A stretch of 49,916 nt of DNA from Nitrososphaeraceae archaeon (GCA_019246625.1 JAFAQB010000276.1:1-49916); one strand, 5' to 3'. Counted from the first letter of the stretch, positions 29,469-41,221 are shown. Numbers and translations are program-made. The notes: generated by a model not told the origin, from the letters alone.

Positions 29469-31109
29469 ATGACTTTTAATATGCGATATCTGGACTTGAA
29501 AAGGAAAATACGAGATGTGCGTATGTTAGCAATTCAAGGCATTGCAGAAGCAGGCTCGGGTCATCCTGGAGCATCATTGTCAGCAGCAGAAATTATGGGT
29601 ACCTTATATTTTAGGAGGATTAAACACGATTCGTCAAAACCGAATTGGGGAGAAAGAGACTATTTTGTAGATTCGAAAGCACATTCGGCACCAGCATATT
29701 ATGCCACATTAGCAGTTGCAGGCTACTTCCCCATTGACGAAATAAAGACTTTGAGAAAGATTGGTAGTAGGCTCCAGGGACACCCTGTGAGATATTCAGA
29801 ACAGCAAAAACACCATAGCGTGCCGGGAATTGAATATTCAGGAGGCTCTGAGGGTATAGGTTTATCTGTGTCCATAGGTATCGCAATTGCCCATAAACTT
29901 GATGGCAAAAATAACCGTGTGTATGTTTTGATTGGTGATGGAGAATCAAACGAAGGTCAAGTTTGGGAAGCAGCAATGGCTGCTTCTAAATTCAAATTAG
30001 ATAATGTTATCGCAATATTAGACCGCAACCGTATACAACAAGACGGCTTCACTGAGGATATCATGCCTCTTGATCCAATGCGTGACAAATGGTTGGCATT
30101 CAATTGGAATGTAATTGAGATCGATGGTCATAGGGTTGAACAAGTCATAGATGCTCTTAACAAGGCAAAGCAAGTAGAAGACAAGCCCACCATAATTATA
30201 GCTAATACTATCAAGGGTAACGGCATCAAACATATGACGAATAATCCCCAATGGCATGGCAAGGCCCCTCCAAGAAAACATACCCCAATATTATTGGAAG
30301 AACTTGAAAGTGAATGTTTGATTGCACCATCGATTATTGCTGGAGAACGCGAAAATTATGATGAAAAGATTAGAAAGGCAGAGCGCGGCGGAGCAGACCT
30401 TGTACATCTAGATGTTATGGATGGAAGATTTGTACCAAACACAACATTCTCTGCAAACACAATTAGAAAACTACGTCATATCACTAGCCTCCCATTTGAT
30501 GTTCATCTTATGATTGAAAATCCATTAAAACATATACGAGACTATATTGAAGCTGGATGTGATATTATTACAGTTCATGCAGAGGCTTGTGATGAAAGCG
30601 AGTTTGCCTCTATAAAGGAATCTTTACTATCCAAAGGAATTAGCCCAGGGATTGCAATTAATCCTTCCACAGATATTCCAAATTGGATTTATTCATATAC
30701 AGAAAATATTGATGTTGTAATAATAATGTCCGTAAATCCAGGTTTTGCAGGACAAAAATTTATTCCAGAAGTTTTGCCCAAAATGGTAATGATAAACAAA
30801 AAACTCCGAGAGCACGGGTTCAAGGGGTATATCGAAGCTGATGGCGGCATTGATGATACTACCTTGCAGCAGGTCTATGACTCAGGTGCTAGAATACTGG
30901 TTGCAGGCAACGCAGTATATGGAAGTTCGGACATTCATGGAGCAATTATCCAATTGAGGCATAAAGCGAATGTAGCGTTAGAGAGGAGACTTATAGAACA
31001 TGCAAGTGCGATTGGAATAAGATCCGAGTGGATAAAGATACGTAGACATATATTGATTCCTCTTGCAAATGAGCTAGGTATAGAAGGCGAACTTCATGCA
31101 ATTGAGTAG
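29469..31109 (+). CDS. Fusion: transketolase N-terminal subunit + ribulose-5-phosphate 3-epimerase
   Basis: A 546-residue two-enzyme protein. Residues about 1-275 are the thiamine-diphosphate-binding half of transketolase: GSGHPGASLSAAE (29-41), HSVPGIEYSGGSEG, and IGDGESNEGQVWEAAM ... ILDRN (155-187). From about 284 the protein becomes ribulose-phosphate 3-epimerase: IAPS (Ser288), VHLDVMDG (His313, Asp315), FDVHLMIE (His346), MSVNPGFAGQKF and EADGGID (Asp458), all catalytic or metal positions present. The last 45 residues (from about 500) are an extra helical tail. Both chemistries belong to the non-oxidative pentose phosphate pathway. The next gene, the matching C-terminal transketolase subunit, starts inside this one (14-base overlap). 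Confidence 0.93.
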   Translation: MTFNMRYLDLKRKIRDVRMLAIQGIAEAGSGHPGASLSAAEIMGTLYFRRIKHDSSKPNWGERDYFVDSKAHSAPAYYATLAVAGYFPIDEIKTLRKIGSRLQGHPVRYSEQQKHHSVPGIEYSGGSEGIGLSVSIGIAIAHKLDGKNNRVYVLIGDGESNEGQVWEAAMAASKFKLDNVIAILDRNRIQQDGFTEDIMPLDPMRDKWLAFNWNVIEIDGHRVEQVIDALNKAKQVEDKPTIIIANTIKGNGIKHMTNNPQWHGKAPPRKHTPILLEELESECLIAPSIIAGERENYDEKIRKAERGGADLVHLDVMDGRFVPNTTFSANTIRKLRHITSLPFDVHLMIENPLKHIRDYIEAGCDIITVHAEACDESEFASIKESLLSKGISPGIAINPSTDIPNWIYSYTENIDVVIIMSVNPGFAGQKFIPEVLPKMVMINKKLREHGFKGYIEADGGIDDTTLQQVYDSGARILVAGNAVYGSSDIHGAIIQLRHKANVALERRLIEHASAIGIRSEWIKIRRHILIPLANELGIEGELHAIE

Positions 31110-32067
31110 TGAGAAAAAGACAGCCGATATGAGAGGAGTCTACGGAGATACGCTAGTAGAGCTAGGTCGAATATACAAGGAAGTGGTCTGTGTTGGAGCT
31201 GATACAACAGATTCGCTCAAGACCAAGAAATTTGGCGACAAATATCCTGATAGAATGTTTAATGTAGGAATCGCAGAAGCGAACCTTGTTTCCATAGCGG
31301 CTGGATTAGCAATAGCTGGTAAAATTGCATTTGCCAGCACGTATGCAGCTTTTCTTCCAGGTAGATGTTTGGATCAAATTCGTAATGCCATATGTTATCC
31401 AAATCTCGATGTAAAGCTCGTTGTCTCGCATGCTGGCTTGACTGTAGGTCCTGACGGAGCATCGCATCAGCAAATTGAAGATTTCTCAACCATGCGATCA
31501 ATTCCAAACATTCGAATAATTGTACCTGCGGATGCGGTTTCAGTGAAGCACTTGATAAACTCAATAGTGCAAATGCATGGTCCATTTTATGTTAGACTTG
31601 CAAGACCATCTAGCGATATCCTTTATGCAGAAGAATCATTATTCGAAATAGGCAAAGGAAATATTTTACGTGATGGATCAGATGCAACGATTATATCATG
31701 TGGATTAATGGTAACAAGATCGTTGGAGGCAGCAGATATCTTGAAAAGAAATGAAGGTATTTCATGTAGAGTTGTAGATATGTTTTCGATCAAACCTATT
31801 GATACAGATCTGGTGGAAAAATGTGGCAGAGAAACTGGAGCTATTGCGACTGCTGAAGAACACAATGTTATTGGAGGACTTGGAGGAGCTGTAGCTGAAG
31901 CATCCGCTGAGAGTTATCCTGTCCCGATTAAGCGCATAGGCATTCGTGATACATTCGGGGAATCTGCTAGGGATGAAGAGATTGAAGCGCTTCTTGAAAA
32001 GTACGGGTTAACGTCTACGGAAATAGCTAGAGCAGTAATGGATGCAAGAGGTAGAAGCAAAAGATGA
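31096..32067 (+). CDS. Transketolase C-terminal subunit
   Basis: A 323-residue split transketolase subunit holding the pyrimidine-binding and C-terminal domains. Marks are MRGVYGDTLVELGRI, FNVGIAEANLVSIAAGLA (catalytic Glu), FASTYAAFLPGRCLDQIRN, GLTVGPDGASHQQIED and AIATAEEHNVIGGLGGAV. It must pair with the N-terminal half in the upstream gene. The ATG at 31096 lies 14 bases before the upstream stop and the 3' end overlaps transaldolase by four bases (ATGA), so all three are translationally coupled. Confidence 0.95.
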   Translation: MQLSSEKKTADMRGVYGDTLVELGRIYKEVVCVGADTTDSLKTKKFGDKYPDRMFNVGIAEANLVSIAAGLAIAGKIAFASTYAAFLPGRCLDQIRNAICYPNLDVKLVVSHAGLTVGPDGASHQQIEDFSTMRSIPNIRIIVPADAVSVKHLINSIVQMHGPFYVRLARPSSDILYAEESLFEIGKGNILRDGSDATIISCGLMVTRSLEAADILKRNEGISCRVVDMFSIKPIDTDLVEKCGRETGAIATAEEHNVIGGLGGAVAEASAESYPVPIKRIGIRDTFGESARDEEIEALLEKYGLTSTEIARAVMDARGRSKR

Positions 32068-32729
32068 AAATATTTCTCGATACTGCTAATCTTGAGGCCA
32101 TAAAGATATACAATGATATGGGAATCGTGGACGGTATTACAACTAATCCTACCCTTCTCTCAAAGGAGAAAGGGAATCCAGCAGAAATAATGCAGGAAAT
32201 TGTTAGAATTGTAAATGGGCCAGTAAGTTTAGAAGTTATAGCTACGAGGATTGATGAGATAATAGATGAAGCACATAAGTTAAAGAAATATGGGCAAAAC
32301 GTTATTGTAAAGATTCCAATGATTCCTGATGGTATGAAAGCAGTCAAAAAGCTAAAAGAAGAGGGAATTGAAACCAACGTTACACTTGTTTTCTCTGCAA
32401 ATCAGGCAATTCTGGCAGCAAAGGCAGGGGCATCATATGTAAGCCCATTTATAGGAAGATTAGATGATATAGGAAACGAAGGGATGTTGGTTATTAAAGA
32501 AATTGTACAGATATTTAGAAATTATGAATTTAGAACGCAAGTTCTTGTCGCAAGTATAAGACACCCTGTTCATGTTACAGAGGCGGGGAAAGTTGGAGCA
32601 GATGTAGTCACGCTTCCTCCAGACATATTGGGAAAAATGCTATTGCACCCTCTTACTGATAAAGGTCTTGTAGCATTTCTATCTGATTGGGAGAAAGTTA
32701 AGAAAGAAAACCCTCAGCTAACGATTTAA
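32064..32729 (+). CDS. tal: Transaldolase (small, TalC/fructose-6-phosphate aldolase type)
   Basis: A 221-residue protein of the short transaldolase subfamily, moving dihydroxyacetone units between sugar phosphates. It begins MKIFLDTANLEAIK, then DGITTNPTLLSKEK, VIVKIPM (catalytic Lys) and TNVTLVFSANQAILAAKAGA, SPFIGRLDDIG, later VLVASIRHPVHVTEAGK and VVTLPPDILGKML. The start overlaps the transketolase stop as ATGA. It is the third gene of the operon. Confidence 0.94.
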   Translation: MKIFLDTANLEAIKIYNDMGIVDGITTNPTLLSKEKGNPAEIMQEIVRIVNGPVSLEVIATRIDEIIDEAHKLKKYGQNVIVKIPMIPDGMKAVKKLKEEGIETNVTLVFSANQAILAAKAGASYVSPFIGRLDDIGNEGMLVIKEIVQIFRNYEFRTQVLVASIRHPVHVTEAGKVGADVVTLPPDILGKMLLHPLTDKGLVAFLSDWEKVKKENPQLTI

Positions 32730-32929: not shown

Positions 32930-33079
32930 TTACTTCTTTAATCTTGTTCTTGTTTTTCGCTTATTCAGTTTAAATAGTATTATTCCTGCGATACCCCATA
33001 GCATTACTGCGAAAAGTGTCTGTTGAAAAAACCAAGCAACGCCACCAGTTATTGCGAAAAACATACCTAAGATTCCCAT
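32930..33079 (-). CDS. Small single-pass membrane protein, 49 aa
   Basis: A 49-codon gene translating as MGILGMFFAITGGVAWFFQQ ... FKLNKRKTRTRLKK. One or two hydrophobic segments (3-20 and 23-35) are followed by a strongly basic tail, a coherent membrane topology that is unlikely by chance. A TTG seven codons upstream is an alternative start. It lies 66 bases downstream of the last gene of the AAA/VWA block on the same strand and could be its fifth member. Confidence 0.5.
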   Translation of the reverse strand: MGILGMFFAITGGVAWFFQQTLFAVMLWGIAGIILFKLNKRKTRTRLKK

Positions 33080-33145: not shown

Positions 33146-34708
33146 TTAGGCTCTCAGCAGATTTATGACTTTTTTAGGCATGTCTTGTAACCTGCTTACA
33201 GCAACTGTTTTCTCATAGTTTAAGTACTTTAGATTATGAGTTATACCCACAGAATCATTTAAATTTCTACCTACCCCAAGTGCCACCATTTTTATTCCCA
33301 TTTTTCTATATGTCAGAACCATTTCACGTACTGCATCAAAATCGGATGGTTCGCCATCAGTTAATGTGACCATGATATCTGGCTTGAATGATTTTGTGAC
33401 GGGAATTAGTAAACCATATATTTCTGCAAGTGGAGTCCCACCACTTGCCTTTATCTGCACCAATCTTCTCGCGCTAATTAATGACCATTTTACGTTTGGA
33501 GGTTTTACTATCCAGCATTTTACTTGTCTTGCTTCCGTATTAAAAGCATAAACTGCAAATTTTATTGCAAGGTAATGCAACGCTTCACAGAGAGCAATCG
33601 TTGCCTGTTTGTATCCTAATTCTGCATCTTCGATACTGCTAGAGTGATCCAGCAAAATTGTAACTTTTGTTTTAATCGAAAGTTTAAAGTCTGTCAAAAA
33701 TGGTTTTGGCAGTGATTCAGTATAACTCTCAGGGTCAAATTCCTCGCCAGTTTTATCATGCCGTTCTATCCAGCCAGTTCTCCAATCTCTAAATGCTGCC
33801 TTTATTTTTCGAATTAAATCGATGTCATAAATTTGAGTTTCATCCAAATCCATTCTTTCAGGAATACTTAAACCAATGTTTTCTAGACTTTCGTATCCCT
33901 TATTTTCAGTTTTTTTACTTTCGTTTACAAGGGTTTCAAATTCTCCCAATACGTCATTTCCTTCGATAATGTTTTTTGCTGCCTTGTCAATGTCATCGTA
34001 TTTGTGTTTGGCAATGACTACTTTTTCGATCTGCTTTAACAAATCACTTTGGTTAATTGACATACCCAGTCTAGTCCTTGGAGCAATGATGGGAATAGAC
34101 ATTAGAGGATCTATTTCAAGCATTTTGATTAGCTTGGGAATATGTTGTTCAATCCAATTAGTCGAATAACCGTTTTTAATTGCCTCCTCAATCAACTCAT
34201 TCGCGAAGTCTGACGCCTTCTTCAACCTATCAAATTCACTTCCAAATACTTCACCTTTTAGATATCCTGTCAGAAAGTATTGTGAAAATGCTTCGACAAC
34301 CTTGTACCTTCCATAAAGCGAATTCAGAAGAGGACGGGATAGCCAAGAGATACTTTCGTTGAAAATAATCTCCTTTATCATACCTTCCCATTCACGAAAT
34401 CCAAGAAACTCGACACGCTTAGTTTCAATAGTATTAAGCAGTAATCCAAATGCGTGATCATAACTTAGTACCTTTGTTGAATAATGCATCCTCATTGATT
34501 CATACCATAATGCAACACGCCATTGCCTATACTTTTGAAAATCAGTTCCAGGATAGTAATTGATAATAGGAAGTATGATTTGGTTTTTGTCAGGTTTAGA
34601 TATAGGAGTTTTGTCTTCTGACAGAACGATCACAATCTTAGAATTACCGGACCACCTTCTCGCCAGAAAGGTTGCAATGTCCAGCAAGATATCATTTCGC
34701 ATAATCAT
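33146..34708 (-). CDS. VWA-domain protein (NorD/CbbO-like partner of AAA+ ATPase)
   Basis: A 520-residue protein with a C-terminal von Willebrand A domain: LLDHSSSIEDAELGY (MIDAS DxSxS, D354-S358), a Thr in ASGGTPLAEIY and TLTDGEPSDFDAV. The N-terminal 300 residues are helical and Glu/Lys-rich, as in NorD, CbbO and similar AAA partners, with no transmembrane segment. Such proteins act with MoxR-type ATPases to remodel enzyme complexes or insert metal. The next gene upstream, 34739-35542, is that ATPase and ends 30 bases before this start. Confidence 0.85.
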   Translation of the reverse strand: MIMRNDILLDIATFLARRWSGNSKIVIVLSEDKTPISKPDKNQIILPIINYYPGTDFQKYRQWRVALWYESMRMHYSTKVLSYDHAFGLLLNTIETKRVEFLGFREWEGMIKEIIFNESISWLSRPLLNSLYGRYKVVEAFSQYFLTGYLKGEVFGSEFDRLKKASDFANELIEEAIKNGYSTNWIEQHIPKLIKMLEIDPLMSIPIIAPRTRLGMSINQSDLLKQIEKVVIAKHKYDDIDKAAKNIIEGNDVLGEFETLVNESKKTENKGYESLENIGLSIPERMDLDETQIYDIDLIRKIKAAFRDWRTGWIERHDKTGEEFDPESYTESLPKPFLTDFKLSIKTKVTILLDHSSSIEDAELGYKQATIALCEALHYLAIKFAVYAFNTEARQVKCWIVKPPNVKWSLISARRLVQIKASGGTPLAEIYGLLIPVTKSFKPDIMVTLTDGEPSDFDAVREMVLTYRKMGIKMVALGVGRNLNDSVGITHNLKYLNYEKTVAVSRLQDMPKKVINLLRA

Positions 34709-34738
34709 GCCAGATGATCTATACTCTTCCCGTATTCA

Positions 34739-35542
34739 TTAGTCGCCAAAAAGAGATGTTATCATGTCCATAACCTTTCGATATTCTACTTCACCCCATT
34801 GATCATATACATTTGCATATACAATTTCCGCTGCCTGATTGCTCTTAATACCTGTATTAAGCAATTTTGCAAAAGCGATTGTTTCTCTCAAACTAGGACT
34901 ATAGTATAGTTCTTCTAAAGCTGCTGCATCTCTCAAATTCTTTGCAAGCTTAATAGCACGTTTTACATCGTTTAGTTTCGAGCTATCTACTTCTGTGTGC
35001 CGATTAATGATCTGAAGCTCTACTTCTTCTGGGGGATATTCTAATCTTAGTCTTATAGGAAATCTGCTCAGGAGCTGTGGAGGCAACTCCTTTGTTCCGA
35101 CATGCGACAACGGATTGATTGTAGCAATTACAAACCAGTCTGAAGCCGCATTAACGAGCTGACCTTCAGCCTCTTTAAGGACTAATTGTCTTCTATCATC
35201 TAATGCTTCATCTAGTCTTAACAAGACATCTGCTTCCGCTGCATTTAGCTCATCAAGGTATAGCACGCCAGCATCACGCATGGACTTTACAAGGATGCCC
35301 TCTACGAAGCTAATTTCTCCTTTATCAAGAGTTTTTGTTCCAATTAAGTGAGATTCTCTTGTACGAAGACTGAAGTTTACAGAGTATAATTCTTTTTTCA
35401 CTTGGGATGCAAATTTCCTTACCAAGGTTGTTTTGCCAGTTCCTTTTGGACCTATTATTAAAGCAAACAATCCTGTTTGGTATGCCTTGCTTAATACACC
35501 AAGGGCATTATTCCAGTCAAGGTAATCAACCTCGAGCATCAT
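34739..35542 (-). CDS. MoxR-family AAA+ ATPase (NorQ/CbbQ-like)
   Basis: A 267-residue ATPase with Walker A LIIGPKGTGKTTLVRKFA (about 33-48), Walker B AGVLYLDELNAAEADVLLRL, sensor ATINPLSHVG and Arg finger-like PQLLSRFPIRLRLEYP. The small size and the ELNAAEADVLLRLDEALDDRR segment fit the NirQ/NorQ/CbbQ subgroup, which activates enzymes together with a VWA protein. TATA-rich sequence at 35565-35590 just upstream could start a separate transcript from the second pair. Confidence 0.92.
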   Translation of the reverse strand: MMLEVDYLDWNNALGVLSKAYQTGLFALIIGPKGTGKTTLVRKFASQVKKELYSVNFSLRTRESHLIGTKTLDKGEISFVEGILVKSMRDAGVLYLDELNAAEADVLLRLDEALDDRRQLVLKEAEGQLVNAASDWFVIATINPLSHVGTKELPPQLLSRFPIRLRLEYPPEEVELQIINRHTEVDSSKLNDVKRAIKLAKNLRDAAALEELYYSPSLRETIAFAKLLNTGIKSNQAAEIVYANVYDQWGEVEYRKVMDMITSLFGD

Positions 35543-35652
35543 TTTCTATTCTAATCCTGTTATAACTTATAATATAATAATATAATGATATGTCCTCCTT
35601 CAAGAAGCAACGCCAAATCAATATTTGTTCTTTGTAGGGTTGAAACTGATTG

Positions 35653-37065
35653 TTAGGTACGAGCTCGAATGGTCTTTTTTTTGTTGTTCAAATAGTCTGT
35701 AAGGAGCACCCTGTCGATTATTCCTGGATTAATATAATATGATCTACCTCTAACATTTTTTTCCATTTCATTTACATAACCTAGCAATGAATCTTCTTCA
35801 CTTATCATAATTGTGTCAATTTCAACTCCTAACCTATGGCATTTTTTCGCTTCTCGAATTGTTCTTTCTCCAATATACTGATCCACCTGCTTATAGCGAT
35901 AACATAGATACACTACTTCTCCTGATGTAATATCAAGGCTCATATCCTGATTTTCTTTGAAAAAGTGAAGAGTTTCTTTATCTGCAATATAAAAATGAGA
36001 ATACGGTTTTCGAGACAGAATTTCATCCTGCTCCTTCTTATTATCTATAAAGCAAGCACTTGGATGGCCATCAGTTATCAAGACTATTCGTTTATTTGTT
36101 GCACTATGAGTTTGGAGGATTTTATTACTCAGTCGAAACGCTGATTGATAATTTGTATAATGTAAAAAATCAGAACCTGGTTCAAATGTCTTTAGATATG
36201 GGATATCATAAGGAGCAACCTTTGACGCCAAAGCTCCAAAGCCGACAACATAGATTGAATCTGACGGGAAATATCTCCGATTTAATAGAAATAGACTCCA
36301 GAGGGCTCTTTTGGCTGCTTCAATTCTGCTCATATCGCCAGACATAGAAGAATAACGCATAGTTGAGCTTAAGTCGATGCAATAGACTAATGCAACTGTG
36401 ACATCTCGCATTGTTTCATATTCTTGAAAATCATCTACGTTGAGTTTCAAGGGGATTTCAATTTGCTTGCTTTTCTTTGCTACCCTTTGAATAGTATTTA
36501 GCAACGAATTTGGAACATCAAGAAGTCTAATATCATCTCCGGGTTCATATTTCCTGTTCGTGTCTAATGTAACAGAACCGTATCCAATGGAGTTAGTATT
36601 ATGAACTCCAAAGTCACCAGCTTTCAAAGCCTTCATTACATCATTTAAAATCTTTCCACCGATAGTTATGAAACCCTTTGAGCTGAGCCATTTTTGTGAG
36701 TCTTTAAGATATCCTTTTTGTATAAGATGTCTTATTATGGGTTGTGGAGCAGAATTCCTGCTTGGTATTCCTGTAACCTTCGCACTTTGATTTCTTTCCT
36801 GCTGTTGGTTATTGCTTTCATGATTGCTATCATGTGACGTCAAAATATCCTGTAACGATTGTTCAAGTTGTTGCAGATTTGGAACCTTTTCTCTCAATAC
36901 TTCCCTACCAATAGTTTTTAATAATTTATCTAACATGTCGTTAGATAAATTTTGATCTTCTTGTTCCTCTCTTCTATTTTGAAGCTCTAAATCGTCACAG
37001 GGAAAATAAACAAACCCTTTTGTGCCAAGAGTATTATTGCTAAACGAATTCATATCTGTTGTCAT
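35653..37065 (-). CDS. VWA-domain protein of the second AAA/VWA pair
   Basis: A 470-residue protein with Gln/Asn-rich linker (about 78-105) and a C-terminal VWA domain: ALVYCIDLSSTMRYSSMSGD (MIDAS starts Asp231; variant DxSxT), SIYVVGFGALA and LITDGHPSACF. After it, a helical region ends NKKKTIRART. It resembles the ChlD-like VWA proteins paired with ChlI-like ATPases in bacteria, without the cobalamin or chlorophyll chelatase genes. Its start overlaps the end of the ATPase gene by 26 bases, so the two are translated together. Confidence 0.85.
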   Translation of the reverse strand: MTTDMNSFSNNTLGTKGFVYFPCDDLELQNRREEQEDQNLSNDMLDKLLKTIGREVLREKVPNLQQLEQSLQDILTSHDSNHESNNQQQERNQSAKVTGIPSRNSAPQPIIRHLIQKGYLKDSQKWLSSKGFITIGGKILNDVMKALKAGDFGVHNTNSIGYGSVTLDTNRKYEPGDDIRLLDVPNSLLNTIQRVAKKSKQIEIPLKLNVDDFQEYETMRDVTVALVYCIDLSSTMRYSSMSGDMSRIEAAKRALWSLFLLNRRYFPSDSIYVVGFGALASKVAPYDIPYLKTFEPGSDFLHYTNYQSAFRLSNKILQTHSATNKRIVLITDGHPSACFIDNKKEQDEILSRKPYSHFYIADKETLHFFKENQDMSLDITSGEVVYLCYRYKQVDQYIGERTIREAKKCHRLGVEIDTIMISEEDSLLGYVNEMEKNVRGRSYYINPGIIDRVLLTDYLNNKKKTIRART

Positions 37066-38695
37066 CCTTTTTATCTAGCAATGGAGGTTGGATCCATCTT
37101 AAACCCTCTAGAACTACTTCGGTAACCGATGCAAAAAATTCCCCATCTAAGTCTTGTGTTATACATATGTTTTCGGTTTTTATCCCAAGCTGATTTGCTT
37201 TATTTACAAAATTATTTTGATCTTCTTTGATGTATACCATGGTTTCATCCAACACTTGTTTTAGGTTGGGAAACCTTATTAATTGTGATTTGTAGTCGCC
37301 AGAATTACATTTCTTGTCACCTAGCATCATCTGAGATACCTGAAAGGTTTTGTTTTTTGCAAACTCGCTTTTCAATTTCGTTATTTGCTCAGAAGATAGC
37401 CTTTCGACATATTCAAGTGAAACCTCCTTTATTGCTCTGCTGATTAGTGATTCGAGTATATTTATCCTATTTTGGCGGTTATCTTCTAATTCGGATAACT
37501 CGAACTTAGATGACTGATGGATGCTATGGATATCACAAAATCGGGGCACTGCATTTACAGAATGTAATATGGATCTAGTTCTTTCTACTTCACTTATCAA
37601 AAGCTCCAAAGAGTGGACCCCCATTCTAACACTTACGCCTTTATCCTGATTAATATCATGATGATTTCTAGCTAAATGCGTAATCTTAGCTACGGATTTT
37701 AGGATGAAAACTGGTACAAAAACATTTTTGGTATCAGCAATTCGTGCTTCCTGAACTATGATGAGCATCTCGTCAAAAGTATTCTTTGGATAGTGAGTAT
37801 TTATATGACTTCTGAGTCTATCAAACAAAGGTTCGATAATCTTGCCAGAATGTGTGTAGTCTATTGGATTTGATGTTGCAATAATTTTTACATCTGGCTT
37901 GAAAACTACAGGATAAGAGCCTGTCGTGAACTTTCCTTCCTGCAGAACACTTAGCAGTGCCACTTGTTTTCGTGGATCGAGTACAGGCAACTCGTCAATA
38001 CATAGAATTCCATGACGGGCTTGTAACAATTGACCAGGAGAATAAGATTCAATACTATACAACTCAACGCCTTTCTTGGCAATTTTAATTGCATCAATTT
38101 GACCGACAAGATCTTTTACCGAGATATCGGGTGTAGCAAGTAGATACCTATATCTTTGTATCCCACTTTTCCAGTCGATCTTAGTTTCCAATTTATTATC
38201 ACTTATAATATCTTCGCATTCTTTAGAAACAGCAAATTCAGGACAAGTGTGGAATACTTCCGAACCATTTAGTAGGCCTATAAGTTGTTCTTCAGGAATC
38301 GAACTTGGGATGTCATTTGTCATGGTACCTCTTACCACAGGAATCAACGAAAGAAGATTCTTTGCAATTGATTCGGCAACTTTTGTTTTTGCCTGTCCGA
38401 TCTGTCCTACGAAAAGAATATCGTGACCTGATAAAATAGCTCGGTTGATTGCAGGAATAACATCGTCATCATATCCAATAATACCTGAATATGGGTGCTC
38501 GCCATTTTTCATTTTTGCTATAAGAGTCCCACGTATTTGTTCTTCGACTGAAATATGCTTATAATTGATCTGTAGTAGATCCCCTAATGTTTTGATCTCT
38601 TTATACTCCTCAGGAACACCGGGTAATATTTCTGTATATTTTGGCTTTAAATTATATGAGCGGTGTACAATCTCTTCTATATGTTTTGAACTCAT
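37040..38695 (-). CDS. ChlI/MoxR-like AAA+ ATPase of the second AAA/VWA pair
   Basis: A 551-residue ATPase. An unusual N-terminal 70 residues precede the AAA core: SGHDILFVGQIGQAKTKVAES (Walker A G97-T104, with non-standard GQIGQAKT), GILCIDELPVLDPRKQVALL (Walker B, D234/E235), KIIATSNPIDYTHSG (sensor 1) and IEPLFDRLRSHI (Arg finger). The insert around residues 140-220, with PEFAVSKECED, is longer than in magnesium chelatase ChlI. A C-terminal region of about 200 residues is specific to the gene. The target is unknown. Confidence 0.85.
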   Translation of the reverse strand: MSSKHIEEIVHRSYNLKPKYTEILPGVPEEYKEIKTLGDLLQINYKHISVEEQIRGTLIAKMKNGEHPYSGIIGYDDDVIPAINRAILSGHDILFVGQIGQAKTKVAESIAKNLLSLIPVVRGTMTNDIPSSIPEEQLIGLLNGSEVFHTCPEFAVSKECEDIISDNKLETKIDWKSGIQRYRYLLATPDISVKDLVGQIDAIKIAKKGVELYSIESYSPGQLLQARHGILCIDELPVLDPRKQVALLSVLQEGKFTTGSYPVVFKPDVKIIATSNPIDYTHSGKIIEPLFDRLRSHINTHYPKNTFDEMLIIVQEARIADTKNVFVPVFILKSVAKITHLARNHHDINQDKGVSVRMGVHSLELLISEVERTRSILHSVNAVPRFCDIHSIHQSSKFELSELEDNRQNRINILESLISRAIKEVSLEYVERLSSEQITKLKSEFAKNKTFQVSQMMLGDKKCNSGDYKSQLIRFPNLKQVLDETMVYIKEDQNNFVNKANQLGIKTENICITQDLDGEFFASVTEVVLEGLRWIQPPLLDKKDDNRYEFV

Positions 38696-39172
38696 ATAAT
38701 ATGTAGTTCGCGTACTGTTTCATGGATTTAAACATTTCAATTAAAAGTCGGCTCTGTTAACTTAAGGTAATCTGTATATCTAGGCATGTGCTAGCTTTGA
38801 TTGCTATGAGCAGAGCTAGAACACACCCAGCTATAGCTTGTACCTTTAAATCGATTATTAGCCATTAATTACGCAAGAGGTTTTATGTACACATGGATAT
38901 GGATAGAATAAGGTTTATGATATTCTTAATTATGGATGGAGGTTAAGTTAAGAGCCAAAAGTCAAATAATACATATAAGAATTATTGCATTTTTCCATAG
39001 ATTTACGTAAGGTCAACAAATTCATAAACCCAAAAGTCAGGTCGTTTACTTAACAATCACATTGTTGTATTATCCGTAAATATAAACGAGTCTTCCCGAT
39101 GGATAGTTCATCAGGGTCAAATATGATAAATCCAGATGGTTTTTATTGCGGAAGTTATTTTTAGTCTTTAGC
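38696..39172. other. Divergent promoter region with a hairpin and TATA box
   Basis: About 475 bases between the divergent ATPase gene and rps13. At 38787-38825 there is a stem-loop: TGTG + CTAGCT on one arm and AGCTAG + (AA bulge) + CACA on the other, with an inner TGC/GCA pair. A TATA-like box TAAATATAAA (39077-39086) lies upstream of rps13. No other gene or RNA is supported; a 13-codon ORF (39123-39164) in the leader is probably chance. Confidence 0.45.
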
Positions 39173-39724
39173 TTGTCCGCATCAGACTATAAACACATTC
39201 TTAGAATAGCGGGTAAAGACATCACAGGAAGCAGGAAATTGATTGTTGCATTAAGTGAAATCAAAGGGATTGGATATAATTTCGCTCAAGTTTTACTACA
39301 GTCTTTAAACATAAGTCCGAACATCCGGGTAGGGTTTTTAACAGATAAAGAGCTATCAGACATTGAGGCAGCTATTAAAAATCCATCAAGGTCAGGCATG
39401 CCATATTGGTATGTAAACAGAAGAAAGGACATGGATACGGGTTCTGATCAGCATCTCATTACTTCTGATCTTGACTTTGCAATCTCAAATGACATTGATC
39501 GTGAAAAGAATGTAATGAGTTGGCGTGGTTATAGACACATGTTTGGTCTTAGGGTAAGAGGCCAATGTACCAGAACGACCGGGAGAAGAGGTGGAGCAGT
39601 AGGAGTCAAGAAGACGGGTAAGCCTATGCCAGGAGGCCCATCACCCGCAGCGGGATCTGGTGTGACAACAGCCCAAACACCTGTAACAGAGCCAGCTAAA
39701 ACTACCGAACCATCCTCAAAATAG
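39173..39724 (+). CDS. rps13: Small ribosomal subunit protein uS13
   Basis: A 183-residue ribosomal protein contacting the subunit head, beginning MSASDYKHILRIAGKDITGS and containing LSEIKGIGYNFAQ, SWRGYRHMFGLRVRGQCTRT and TGRRGG, all typical of archaeal uS13. I chose the TTG at 39173 because it gives the usual N-terminus; an earlier TTG at 39146 adds nine hydrophobic residues. The last 30 residues (GKPMPGGPSPAAGSGVTTAQ onward) are Pro/Thr/Ser-rich and not part of the fold. The uS4 gene starts 31 bases later. Confidence 0.94.
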   Translation: MSASDYKHILRIAGKDITGSRKLIVALSEIKGIGYNFAQVLLQSLNISPNIRVGFLTDKELSDIEAAIKNPSRSGMPYWYVNRRKDMDTGSDQHLITSDLDFAISNDIDREKNVMSWRGYRHMFGLRVRGQCTRTTGRRGGAVGVKKTGKPMPGGPSPAAGSGVTTAQTPVTEPAKTTEPSSK

Positions 39725-39755
39725 CCAGTCAAGAGGCAATTGGAGAGAAGTGTGA

Positions 39756-40262
39756 ATGGGAGATCCTCGTAAATCAAAAAAGACATTTCATAGACCAAGA
39801 AGAATATGGACTGCAGACCAGCTTAATGCCGAACTTTATATTATTGGATCATATGGATTACGAAATAAACGTGAGTTGTGGAAAGCACAATCAGAGGTTG
39901 CTAGATTAAGAAACCAGTCAAGAGCATTACTAGCACTTCCATCAGAGCTAAGGGCTGAGAAAGAAACACAATTGTTAGGCTTCTTAAAGAGACTTGGACT
40001 TGTAAATGAATCAGCTACCCTTGACGATGTTTTAAATCTGAAGATTGAAGATCTCCTTGAGCGTAGACTTCAAACAATAGTAATGAAGAAGGGGGGTACA
40101 AAGTCGCCCCACCAGGCACGGCAAATTGTGGTTCACGGACATGTTTCCTTGGGAGACAGAATTGTGAATATACCAGGGTACCTAGTGAGACGGGAAGAAG
40201 AACCATCTATTATTCTATTACATACAGCCGGGGTTGCTTCCCAAACCCAAATACATTCTTAA
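39756..40262 (+). CDS. rps4: Small ribosomal subunit protein uS4
   Basis: A 168-residue protein with the S4 fold: MGDPRKSKKTFHRPRRIW, ELYIIGSYGLRNKRELWKAQ and an S4 RNA-binding domain in LERRLQTIVMKK and ARQIVVHGHVSLGDRIVNIPG (about 102-145). It follows uS13 in the usual archaeal uS13-uS4 order and is probably cotranscribed. The stop sits 2 bases before the end of the convergent gene at 40265. Confidence 0.96.
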   Translation: MGDPRKSKKTFHRPRRIWTADQLNAELYIIGSYGLRNKRELWKAQSEVARLRNQSRALLALPSELRAEKETQLLGFLKRLGLVNESATLDDVLNLKIEDLLERRLQTIVMKKGGTKSPHQARQIVVHGHVSLGDRIVNIPGYLVRREEEPSIILLHTAGVASQTQIHS

Positions 40263-40264
40263 CT

Positions 40265-41221
40265 CTATGCTACTGACTTAATGTCTACATGGTCGATTTT
40301 CCCATCAGAGTTCATATCAAATCCCTGTACTATTAAGGCCCATTGATCTTGATCTTGATAATTTTTTAAAATCTCCTCGCTATAGTTTGTCAAAGCAATA
40401 ACTGCGGATTTAGTCCCCACCGATCTTACGCCGGCAATTACAATTACAGTTCCATTATTGTTATATGGGTTTTTTATTCTTGCAATCAAACCATGGTTAT
40501 TTGAGTTGTAGAGGTTGCCGGCTTTGTCGACTAAACCTGACCAAAAATTTGTTTCATTGAATTTTATCGGTAAGTATTTGTTAAAATGTGCTGTTACGAT
40601 ATTTGTACCCGGACCACCAATTGAAATCAGGTTACCACGATCAAGAACTTTTTCTGCTTTTGCATCAGCATCCAACTTTACTATGAACTCAGTTGAAATC
40701 TCTCCAAGCGTTCCTAAGAAAAATGCCAAATGTACGGCATAGTGTCCGTCTCTTGCAGACGATTTATATGGCCCATGTGGATCTGGAGCACCTACTATTA
40801 TTAGGCCGTGGAATGAATTATTTACAATATAATTACCAAAAAATTTATGGGCGTGCTGATGTTTCTTTTGAATGTTTGCCCGAAAATCTAATTGTTTTTC
40901 TCCCCAATTCATTTCGATACCAAATGATGGACTTGAGGGGCGATAAAGTCTTGCAGTGCCGCCCTTAACAAGATTAGTTGTGACTTCTTCTATTGCTCCA
41001 CTCGCTAGTAGCTTGCGAACATAGTAATATACACTTTGCTCATAAATCTGTAGATTTTTTGCAATTTCTGCAGGATACATAGGCCTATGTGATAACAACT
41101 CCATTATTCTCCAAGCTAAAGGATTAGAGAGAACACGTATATCTTTCACATCATCAAAGACGATCATTTTTTTGCCAAAGATTCTGCCATTTGCATCGTA
41201 TACTATAATCTTTTCTTGCAA
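40265..41221 (-). CDS. Winged-helix regulator fused to S-layer-like domain
   Basis: A 318-residue protein. An N-terminal ArsR-type winged helix occupies about 25-95 (IRVLSNPLAWRIMELLSHRP, YPAEIAKNLQIYEQSVYYYV, LVKGGTARLYR). The remaining 200 residues look like archaeal S-layer C-terminal domains: ISIGGPGTNIVTAHFNKYLP, GLIARIKNPYN and VIVIAGVRSVGTKSAVIAL. The end DMNSDGKIDHVDI is a dockerin/EF-hand-like calcium loop. No membrane helix or signal peptide is seen. It is divergent from glmS. The combination of DNA-binding and surface-type domain suggests a sensor or regulator, but the ligand is unknown. Confidence 0.72.
   Translation of the reverse strand: MQEKIIVYDANGRIFGKKMIVFDDVKDIRVLSNPLAWRIMELLSHRPMYPAEIAKNLQIYEQSVYYYVRKLLASGAIEEVTTNLVKGGTARLYRPSSPSFGIEMNWGEKQLDFRANIQKKHQHAHKFFGNYIVNNSFHGLIIVGAPDPHGPYKSSARDGHYAVHLAFFLGTLGEISTEFIVKLDADAKAEKVLDRGNLISIGGPGTNIVTAHFNKYLPIKFNETNFWSGLVDKAGNLYNSNNHGLIARIKNPYNNNGTVIVIAGVRSVGTKSAVIALTNYSEEILKNYQDQDQWALIVQGFDMNSDGKIDHVDIKSVA

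Follow-up and report, generated by a model that had tools for sequence, protein, structure and literature searches.

A predicted NorQ/NorD-like AAA+/VWA pair confined to AmoA-bearing families of Thaumarchaeota, and its separability from a neighbouring ChlI-like pair

We identified four adjacent genes on the minus strand of DNA from a Nitrososphaeraceae archaeon (GCA_019246625.1 JAFAQB010000276.1:1-49916; the whole stretch of 49,916 nucleotides that was analysed is referred to as the window). They encode two pairs of an AAA+ ATPase and a VWA protein. Pair A comprises a 551-aa ChlI-like ATPase (AAA-A, 37040..38695), assigned by Pfam, a ChlI profile match and similarity to a Thermomicrobium protein, and a 470-aa partner (VWA-A, 35653..37065), assigned by Pfam and a variant MIDAS. 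Pair B comprises a 267-aa, single-module ATPase that resembles NorQ and CbbQ (AAA-B, 34739..35542) and a 520-aa NorD-like protein (VWA-B, 33146..34708), for which the evidence is Pfam, a fold model and a MIDAS. AAA_5 was the Pfam domain found on both ATPases, with VWA_2 on VWA-A and VWA on VWA-B; none of the four proteins reached an NCBIfam equivalog cut-off. The AAA-A and VWA-A genes overlap by 26 nt, and gaps of 110 nt and 30 nt separate VWA-A from AAA-B and AAA-B from VWA-B, respectively. Given the overlap and small gaps, transcription of all four genes as one unit is possible in this species. The reading frames are intact, with stops very rare, in relatives from AmoA-bearing archaea that are 39–83% identical, and thus we consider the genes to be real. 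An earlier note on this DNA had reported two pairs with these sizes and this overlap, and all of these features were found.

The Walker and MIDAS motifs, described in that note as intact, are present and conserved in alignments (columns were judged across 13 diverse relatives). In AAA-A these are Walker A GQIGQAKT, Walker B CIDEL, sensor-1 N276 and R293; the equivalents in AAA-B are GPKGTGKT, LYLDE, N143 and R160. Arginine-finger residues are among the conserved columns of both ATPases. The conserved MIDAS of VWA-B consists of DHSSS, T425 and D451, and that of VWA-A is a conserved DxSxT variant (DLSST, with T304 and D332).

Plus-strand genes flank the locus. The C-terminal half of transketolase and transaldolase (31096..32729, identified by eye) are convergent with pair B, and ribosomal S13 and S4 (39146..40262, identified by Pfam and by eye, respectively) are divergent from pair A. 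Downstream of pair B, a hydrophobic ORF of 49 aa (32930..33079, minus strand, with an internal ATG as its start) exists as previously noted. A tblastn search of 80 related loci found no match to it, which is a weak test for a short query where many loci are truncated. This membrane ORF is at most a putative gene and probably not part of the system. Further out, a 546-aa ORF (29469–31109 of the window) appears by eye to be a fusion of the N-terminal half of transketolase and ribulose-phosphate 3-epimerase; Nitrosocaldaceae have two separate ORFs in its place (L035:2019-3625). On the other side of the locus (40265–41221) is an HTH protein (HTH_20/TrmB-like) whose score for S_layer_C (PF05124) is likewise above threshold, which is an unusual combination.

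Profile searches with AAA-B gave end to end matches to NorQ (9qhd, 3.4e-24) and CbbQ (5c3c, 1.8e-23), and a weaker match to CobS. Midasin, which has several AAA modules per chain, outscored NorQ and CbbQ. The protein is 64–83% identical among relatives in ammonia-oxidizing archaea (AOA), and its score against the CbbQ_C Pfam domain is 19.7 bits (cut-off 20.6). The profile match of VWA-B to NorD is weak (E=0.018). The best PDB matches found by Foldseek for its AlphaFold2 model (pLDDT 82.7) are the VWA domains of NorD (9qh6, 9qh8 and 9qhd). This model has a folded N-terminal domain, a linker with low-confidence stretches (~206–345), a C-terminal VWA domain and a hairpin (384–402), which we take, in a single-chain model, for the putative counterpart of the NorD finger. 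From sequence and modelled fold, we classify pair B as a predicted NorQ/NorD-like MoxR AAA/VWA pair. NorQ/NorD of Paracoccus denitrificans and Jhaorihella thermophila (PMC9976466, PMC13036017) likewise combine a single-module MoxR AAA+ protein with an adjacent partner that has an N-terminal domain, a linker, a C-terminal VWA domain with MIDAS, and a hairpin at the finger position. However, NorD is longer (~640 aa) than VWA-B and the sequence similarity is weak. The logic of an AAA ring and a VWA partner is common to both pairs of the locus and to CbbQ/CbbO, CobS/CobT, ChlI/ChlD and RavA/ViaA, and the earlier assignment to MoxR-type AAA/VWA pairs holds for both.

AAA-A has a Mg_chelatase Pfam domain in addition to AAA_5, and its profile matches ChlI (8osf, 5.6e-10). 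By sequence, it shares 38% identity with an ATPase from Thermomicrobium roseum that carries the annotation "sigma 54-interacting transcriptional regulator", and VWA-A is 28% identical (E=3e-41) to the 699-aa VWA protein encoded next to that ATPase (TRD_RS11480/11485). An adjacent AAA and VWA counterpart is also present in Tsukamurella, and weak relatives of pair A, likewise adjacent, occur in a non-AOA family (f12, L048). Gene order is the same in the Thermomicrobium pair and pair A, but the bacterial VWA partners (659–699 aa) have a longer N-terminus than VWA-A, and the bacterial ATPase is shorter than AAA-A (466 aa). The VWA-A model (pLDDT 62.9) is too poor for an argument from fold. Based on sequence similarity, we place pair A in the bacterial family of sigma-54-interacting ATPases with VWA partners (Thermomicrobium, Actinobacteria), which is presumably the Rv0958/Rv0959 type of mycobacteria. 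Both pairs belong to already known kinds of system.

AOA genomes encode a third AAA/VWA pair, located beside T2SSE/T2SSF pilus genes (L051:7078-9626, L052:5141-7962, L053:6943-9706). It matches the type IV pilus-linked MoxR/vWA pair of Thaumarchaeota (arCOG00441/arCOG02900; PMC4858521), has a CbbQ_C domain and an AAA identity of ~30%, and lies outside the window. Around pair B, annotation of the neighbouring genes in several families turned up no pilus genes. As the pilus-linked pair is a separate, third paralogue, a function of the present genes as a type IV pilus regulator is rejected. PADLOC defence models gave weak, generic AAA matches only and thus no support for an anti-phage defence system.

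Among 61 order-level relatives, strong matches to all four proteins are confined to the four families with archaeal AmoA: Nitrososphaeraceae, Nitrosocaldaceae, Nitrosopumilaceae and another Thaumarchaeota family (f3). A wider survey of 275 genomes of the order (≥85% complete) identified VWA-B in 207, AmoA in 200 and VWA-A in 106. All 207 genomes with VWA-B are among the 221 from the AmoA-bearing families. AmoA and VWA-B occur together in 187 of these 221, AmoA alone in 13, VWA-B alone in 20, and neither in one. Both are absent from all 54 genomes of the order's other families. The idea of a system restricted to ammonia oxidizers is thus borne out for pair B, although a single phylogenetic association of this kind does not tell which protein is the client. 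Genomes that encode AmoA and lack both AAA-B and VWA-B are those of Nitrosothermus koennekii (G100), all four of genus g43, G111 and G113 (at least seven genomes in total, from Nitrosothermus and three Nitrosopumilaceae genera). VWA-A is retained in G100, g43 and G111, but not in G113. The rest of the genomes with AmoA and no VWA-B are scattered singletons in genera that normally have VWA-B, and these may reflect assembly gaps.

The distribution of VWA-A is different. Two of its 106 matches are weak and fall in f12, and the remaining 104 are among the 221 genomes of the AmoA-bearing families (47/47 in Nitrososphaeraceae, 6/6 in Nitrosocaldaceae, 1/1 in f3 and 50/167 in Nitrosopumilaceae). In ten Nitrosopumilaceae genera, among them the large genus g52, no sampled genome has VWA-A, and nearly all of these genomes have pair B. 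Overall, more than 100 genomes have pair B but lack pair A, and several have pair A but lack pair B. When placed on a tree from concatenated AAA-B and VWA-B, the losses of pair A number at least three (a clade of g32, g48, g50 and g52, with support of 1.0; g51; and G220 within g53). VWA-A and VWA-B have no BLASTP similarity to each other and are unlike beyond the domain.

It had been proposed that the two pairs could form a single maturation or remodelling machine with two rings, and that conservation of the four-gene order would bear on this. The four genes are contiguous, on the same strand and with short gaps, in 9 of the 12 Nitrososphaeraceae genera sampled, and the cluster may, by parsimony, predate the split from Nitrosopumilaceae, as pair B adjoins transaldolase in both families. 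Thus the order is conserved in most genera of this family, but not in the other AmoA-bearing families. Within Nitrososphaeraceae, contiguity was lost in Nitrososphaera (g12) and g4, sister genera in the pair B tree, and the pairs are ~10 kb apart in g2. The pairs are also distant in Nitrosocaldus, f3 and Nitrosopumilaceae. Distant or independent occurrence in most relatives was what the earlier note itself regarded as the mark of unrelated modules, and by that measure pairs A and B are two independent MoxR-type AAA+/VWA modules. A single four-protein machine is largely refuted as a general statement by the independent losses and the genomic separation, and we consider it very unlikely overall. 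Later studies need not treat both pairs as one system.

VWA-A adjoins AAA-A in 79 of 80 loci, and S13-S4 is upstream of and divergent from pair A in 64 of the 80, including loci from all four AmoA families. S13 and S4 mark the position of pair A, and transketolase and transaldolase that of pair B, with which they are convergent in Nitrososphaeraceae and in g53 (Nitrosotalea-type, Nitrosopumilaceae). In Nitrosocaldaceae, transaldolase adjoins pair A instead. The simplest history would be an ancestral block of transketolase-transaldolase, pair B, pair A and S13-S4, disrupted on more than one occasion. The adjacency is real and regionally conserved, yet dispensable for either pair. Taken as a whole, we consider it probable that pair B is a NorQD-like metal-insertion machine, that pair A is a separate ChlI-like pair, and that the four genes are neighbours through conserved regional gene order rather than as one complex.

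Pair B is not new: it corresponds to the norQ/norD already annotated in AOA. We base this on a nirK-like neighbour in G031, which fits the description "nirK near norD,Q" for N. evergladensis (PMC4084955); norQ/norD are noted in AOA elsewhere as well (PMC6790972). The present analysis adds where the pair occurs, that it is separable from pair A, and that NirK, oxidase and cobaltochelatase fit poorly as clients. In bacteria, NorQ/NorD provide cNOR with iron, but norB and cNOR are reported to be lacking in AOA (PMC4084955, PMC6790972), and no nor genes were found in annotated pair B neighbourhoods. A NorQD-like pair that is nearly universal in AOA, with no reported NOR, points to another client, and we agree with the earlier suggestion that the client gene lies outside the window, as regards pair B. 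What makes the locus interesting is the orphan NorQD, and the question of what such a pair acts on in archaea without NOR is sharpened by these results.

Copper nitrite reductase (NirK) is one candidate client. Pair B in G031 and G025 adjoins a gene for a multicopper oxidase fused to a cupredoxin domain, and the proximity was noted previously (PMC4084955). However, NirK-like genes were found in only 69 of the 275 genomes (a lower bound, from a single query at E<=1e-60), and at this threshold they are missing from many genomes with pair B and present in G105, which lacks it. This patchy occurrence does not track pair B, and NirK is rejected as an obligate client; that pair B serves it at all seems highly improbable. 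Still less credible is the idea that either pair drives a cobalt or magnesium chelatase in the manner of CobS/CobT or ChlI/ChlD. The AAA-B profile does resemble CobS and that of AAA-A ChlI, but the large subunit CobN/ChlH (PF02514) is absent from 274 of the 275 genomes (control genomes were positive); the sole genome with PF02514 is not an AOA. A classical CobN/ChlH chelatase motor is thus refuted.

NorB belongs to the same superfamily as the heme-copper terminal oxidase. Pair B could therefore mature the oxidase of AOA, as a relative of NorB, in place of FeB insertion, and COX1 is present in the AOA genomes tested. However, COX1 also occurs without pair B in seven non-AOA families, and it is retained in the AmoA-encoding genomes that lack pair B. 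With COX1 in so many genomes without pair B, the terminal oxidase is a poor fit, and we regard this reading as unlikely. In the window's own genome (G000), two COX1 (SoxB/CtaD-like) genes are truncated at the ends of contigs C191 and C211 (L155:4312-5499, L156:4422-5618), one of them following COX2 and a cupredoxin gene. The partial matches had looked odd, but apart from this truncation both are ordinary oxidase genes.

The most likely client of pair B is a membrane metalloenzyme typical of AOA, and we rank AMO above the terminal oxidase here. AMO is the best fit of the four candidates, and our suggestion that pair B is a copper-insertion or remodelling factor of archaeal AMO is a tentative one. 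The shared distribution described above (both in 187 genomes, neither in any of the other 54) is consistent with it, as is the action of NorQD on a membrane enzyme (PMC13036017). In many Nitrosopumilaceae genera, amoA, amoC and an amoB-like gene are ~10–12 kb from pair B (e.g., L032:2250-19514, L057). However, housekeeping genes (S15, SerRS, S3Ae and geranylgeranyl reductase) lie between, and the AmoA-encoding genomes of G100, g43, G111 and G113 lack pair B. As at least seven genomes are of this kind, pair B is not essential to AMO everywhere. The more specific proposal, that pair B is a dedicated AMO metallation or activation machine derived from a NorQD-type ancestor and that these lineages use another route, is more doubtful.

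In NorQD structures, the finger sits in the pore of the hexamer, and rotation of the VWA domain stretches the linker, leading to metal insertion (PMC13036017, PMC9976466). By analogy with NorQD, AAA-B would assemble as a hexamer, with its pore plugged by the hairpin finger of VWA-B. VWA-B would hold a membrane metalloenzyme through its MIDAS face and its N-terminal domain. Powered by ATP, the VWA domain would rotate and thereby stretch the linker, so that the client would open and metal could be inserted. Pair A would presumably remodel a different client by transfer of force from AAA to VWA; we infer that this client is dispensable from the repeated loss of pair A.

AOA are major nitrifiers, and if the AMO reading is correct, pair B would be the first maturation factor for archaeal AMO. 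We found no paper on archaeal AMO assembly, and a search of the literature on thaumarchaeal MoxR/VWA proteins and AMO maturation returned only norQ/norD annotations and the type IV pilus census. The pair is not mentioned in the main text of a paper on copper limitation in N. viennensis. Set against the distribution across 275 genomes, NirK, cobaltochelatase and the oxidase become less plausible clients, and AMO stays a candidate. Nitrosothermus and g43 are lineages in which the relationship between pair B and AMO can be addressed directly.

Two genomes merit separate mention. G102 (L151, genus g42) is a very large Nitrosopumilaceae genome (a single contig of 3.17 Mb), and its pair B is on a long branch. 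An intact pair B was identified in G044 (1,620,156 bp; L032), which we assume may be Nitrosotenuis cloacae SAT1. If so, its pair B is at odds with PMC4814877, in which SAT1 is stated to lack NorD/NorQ.
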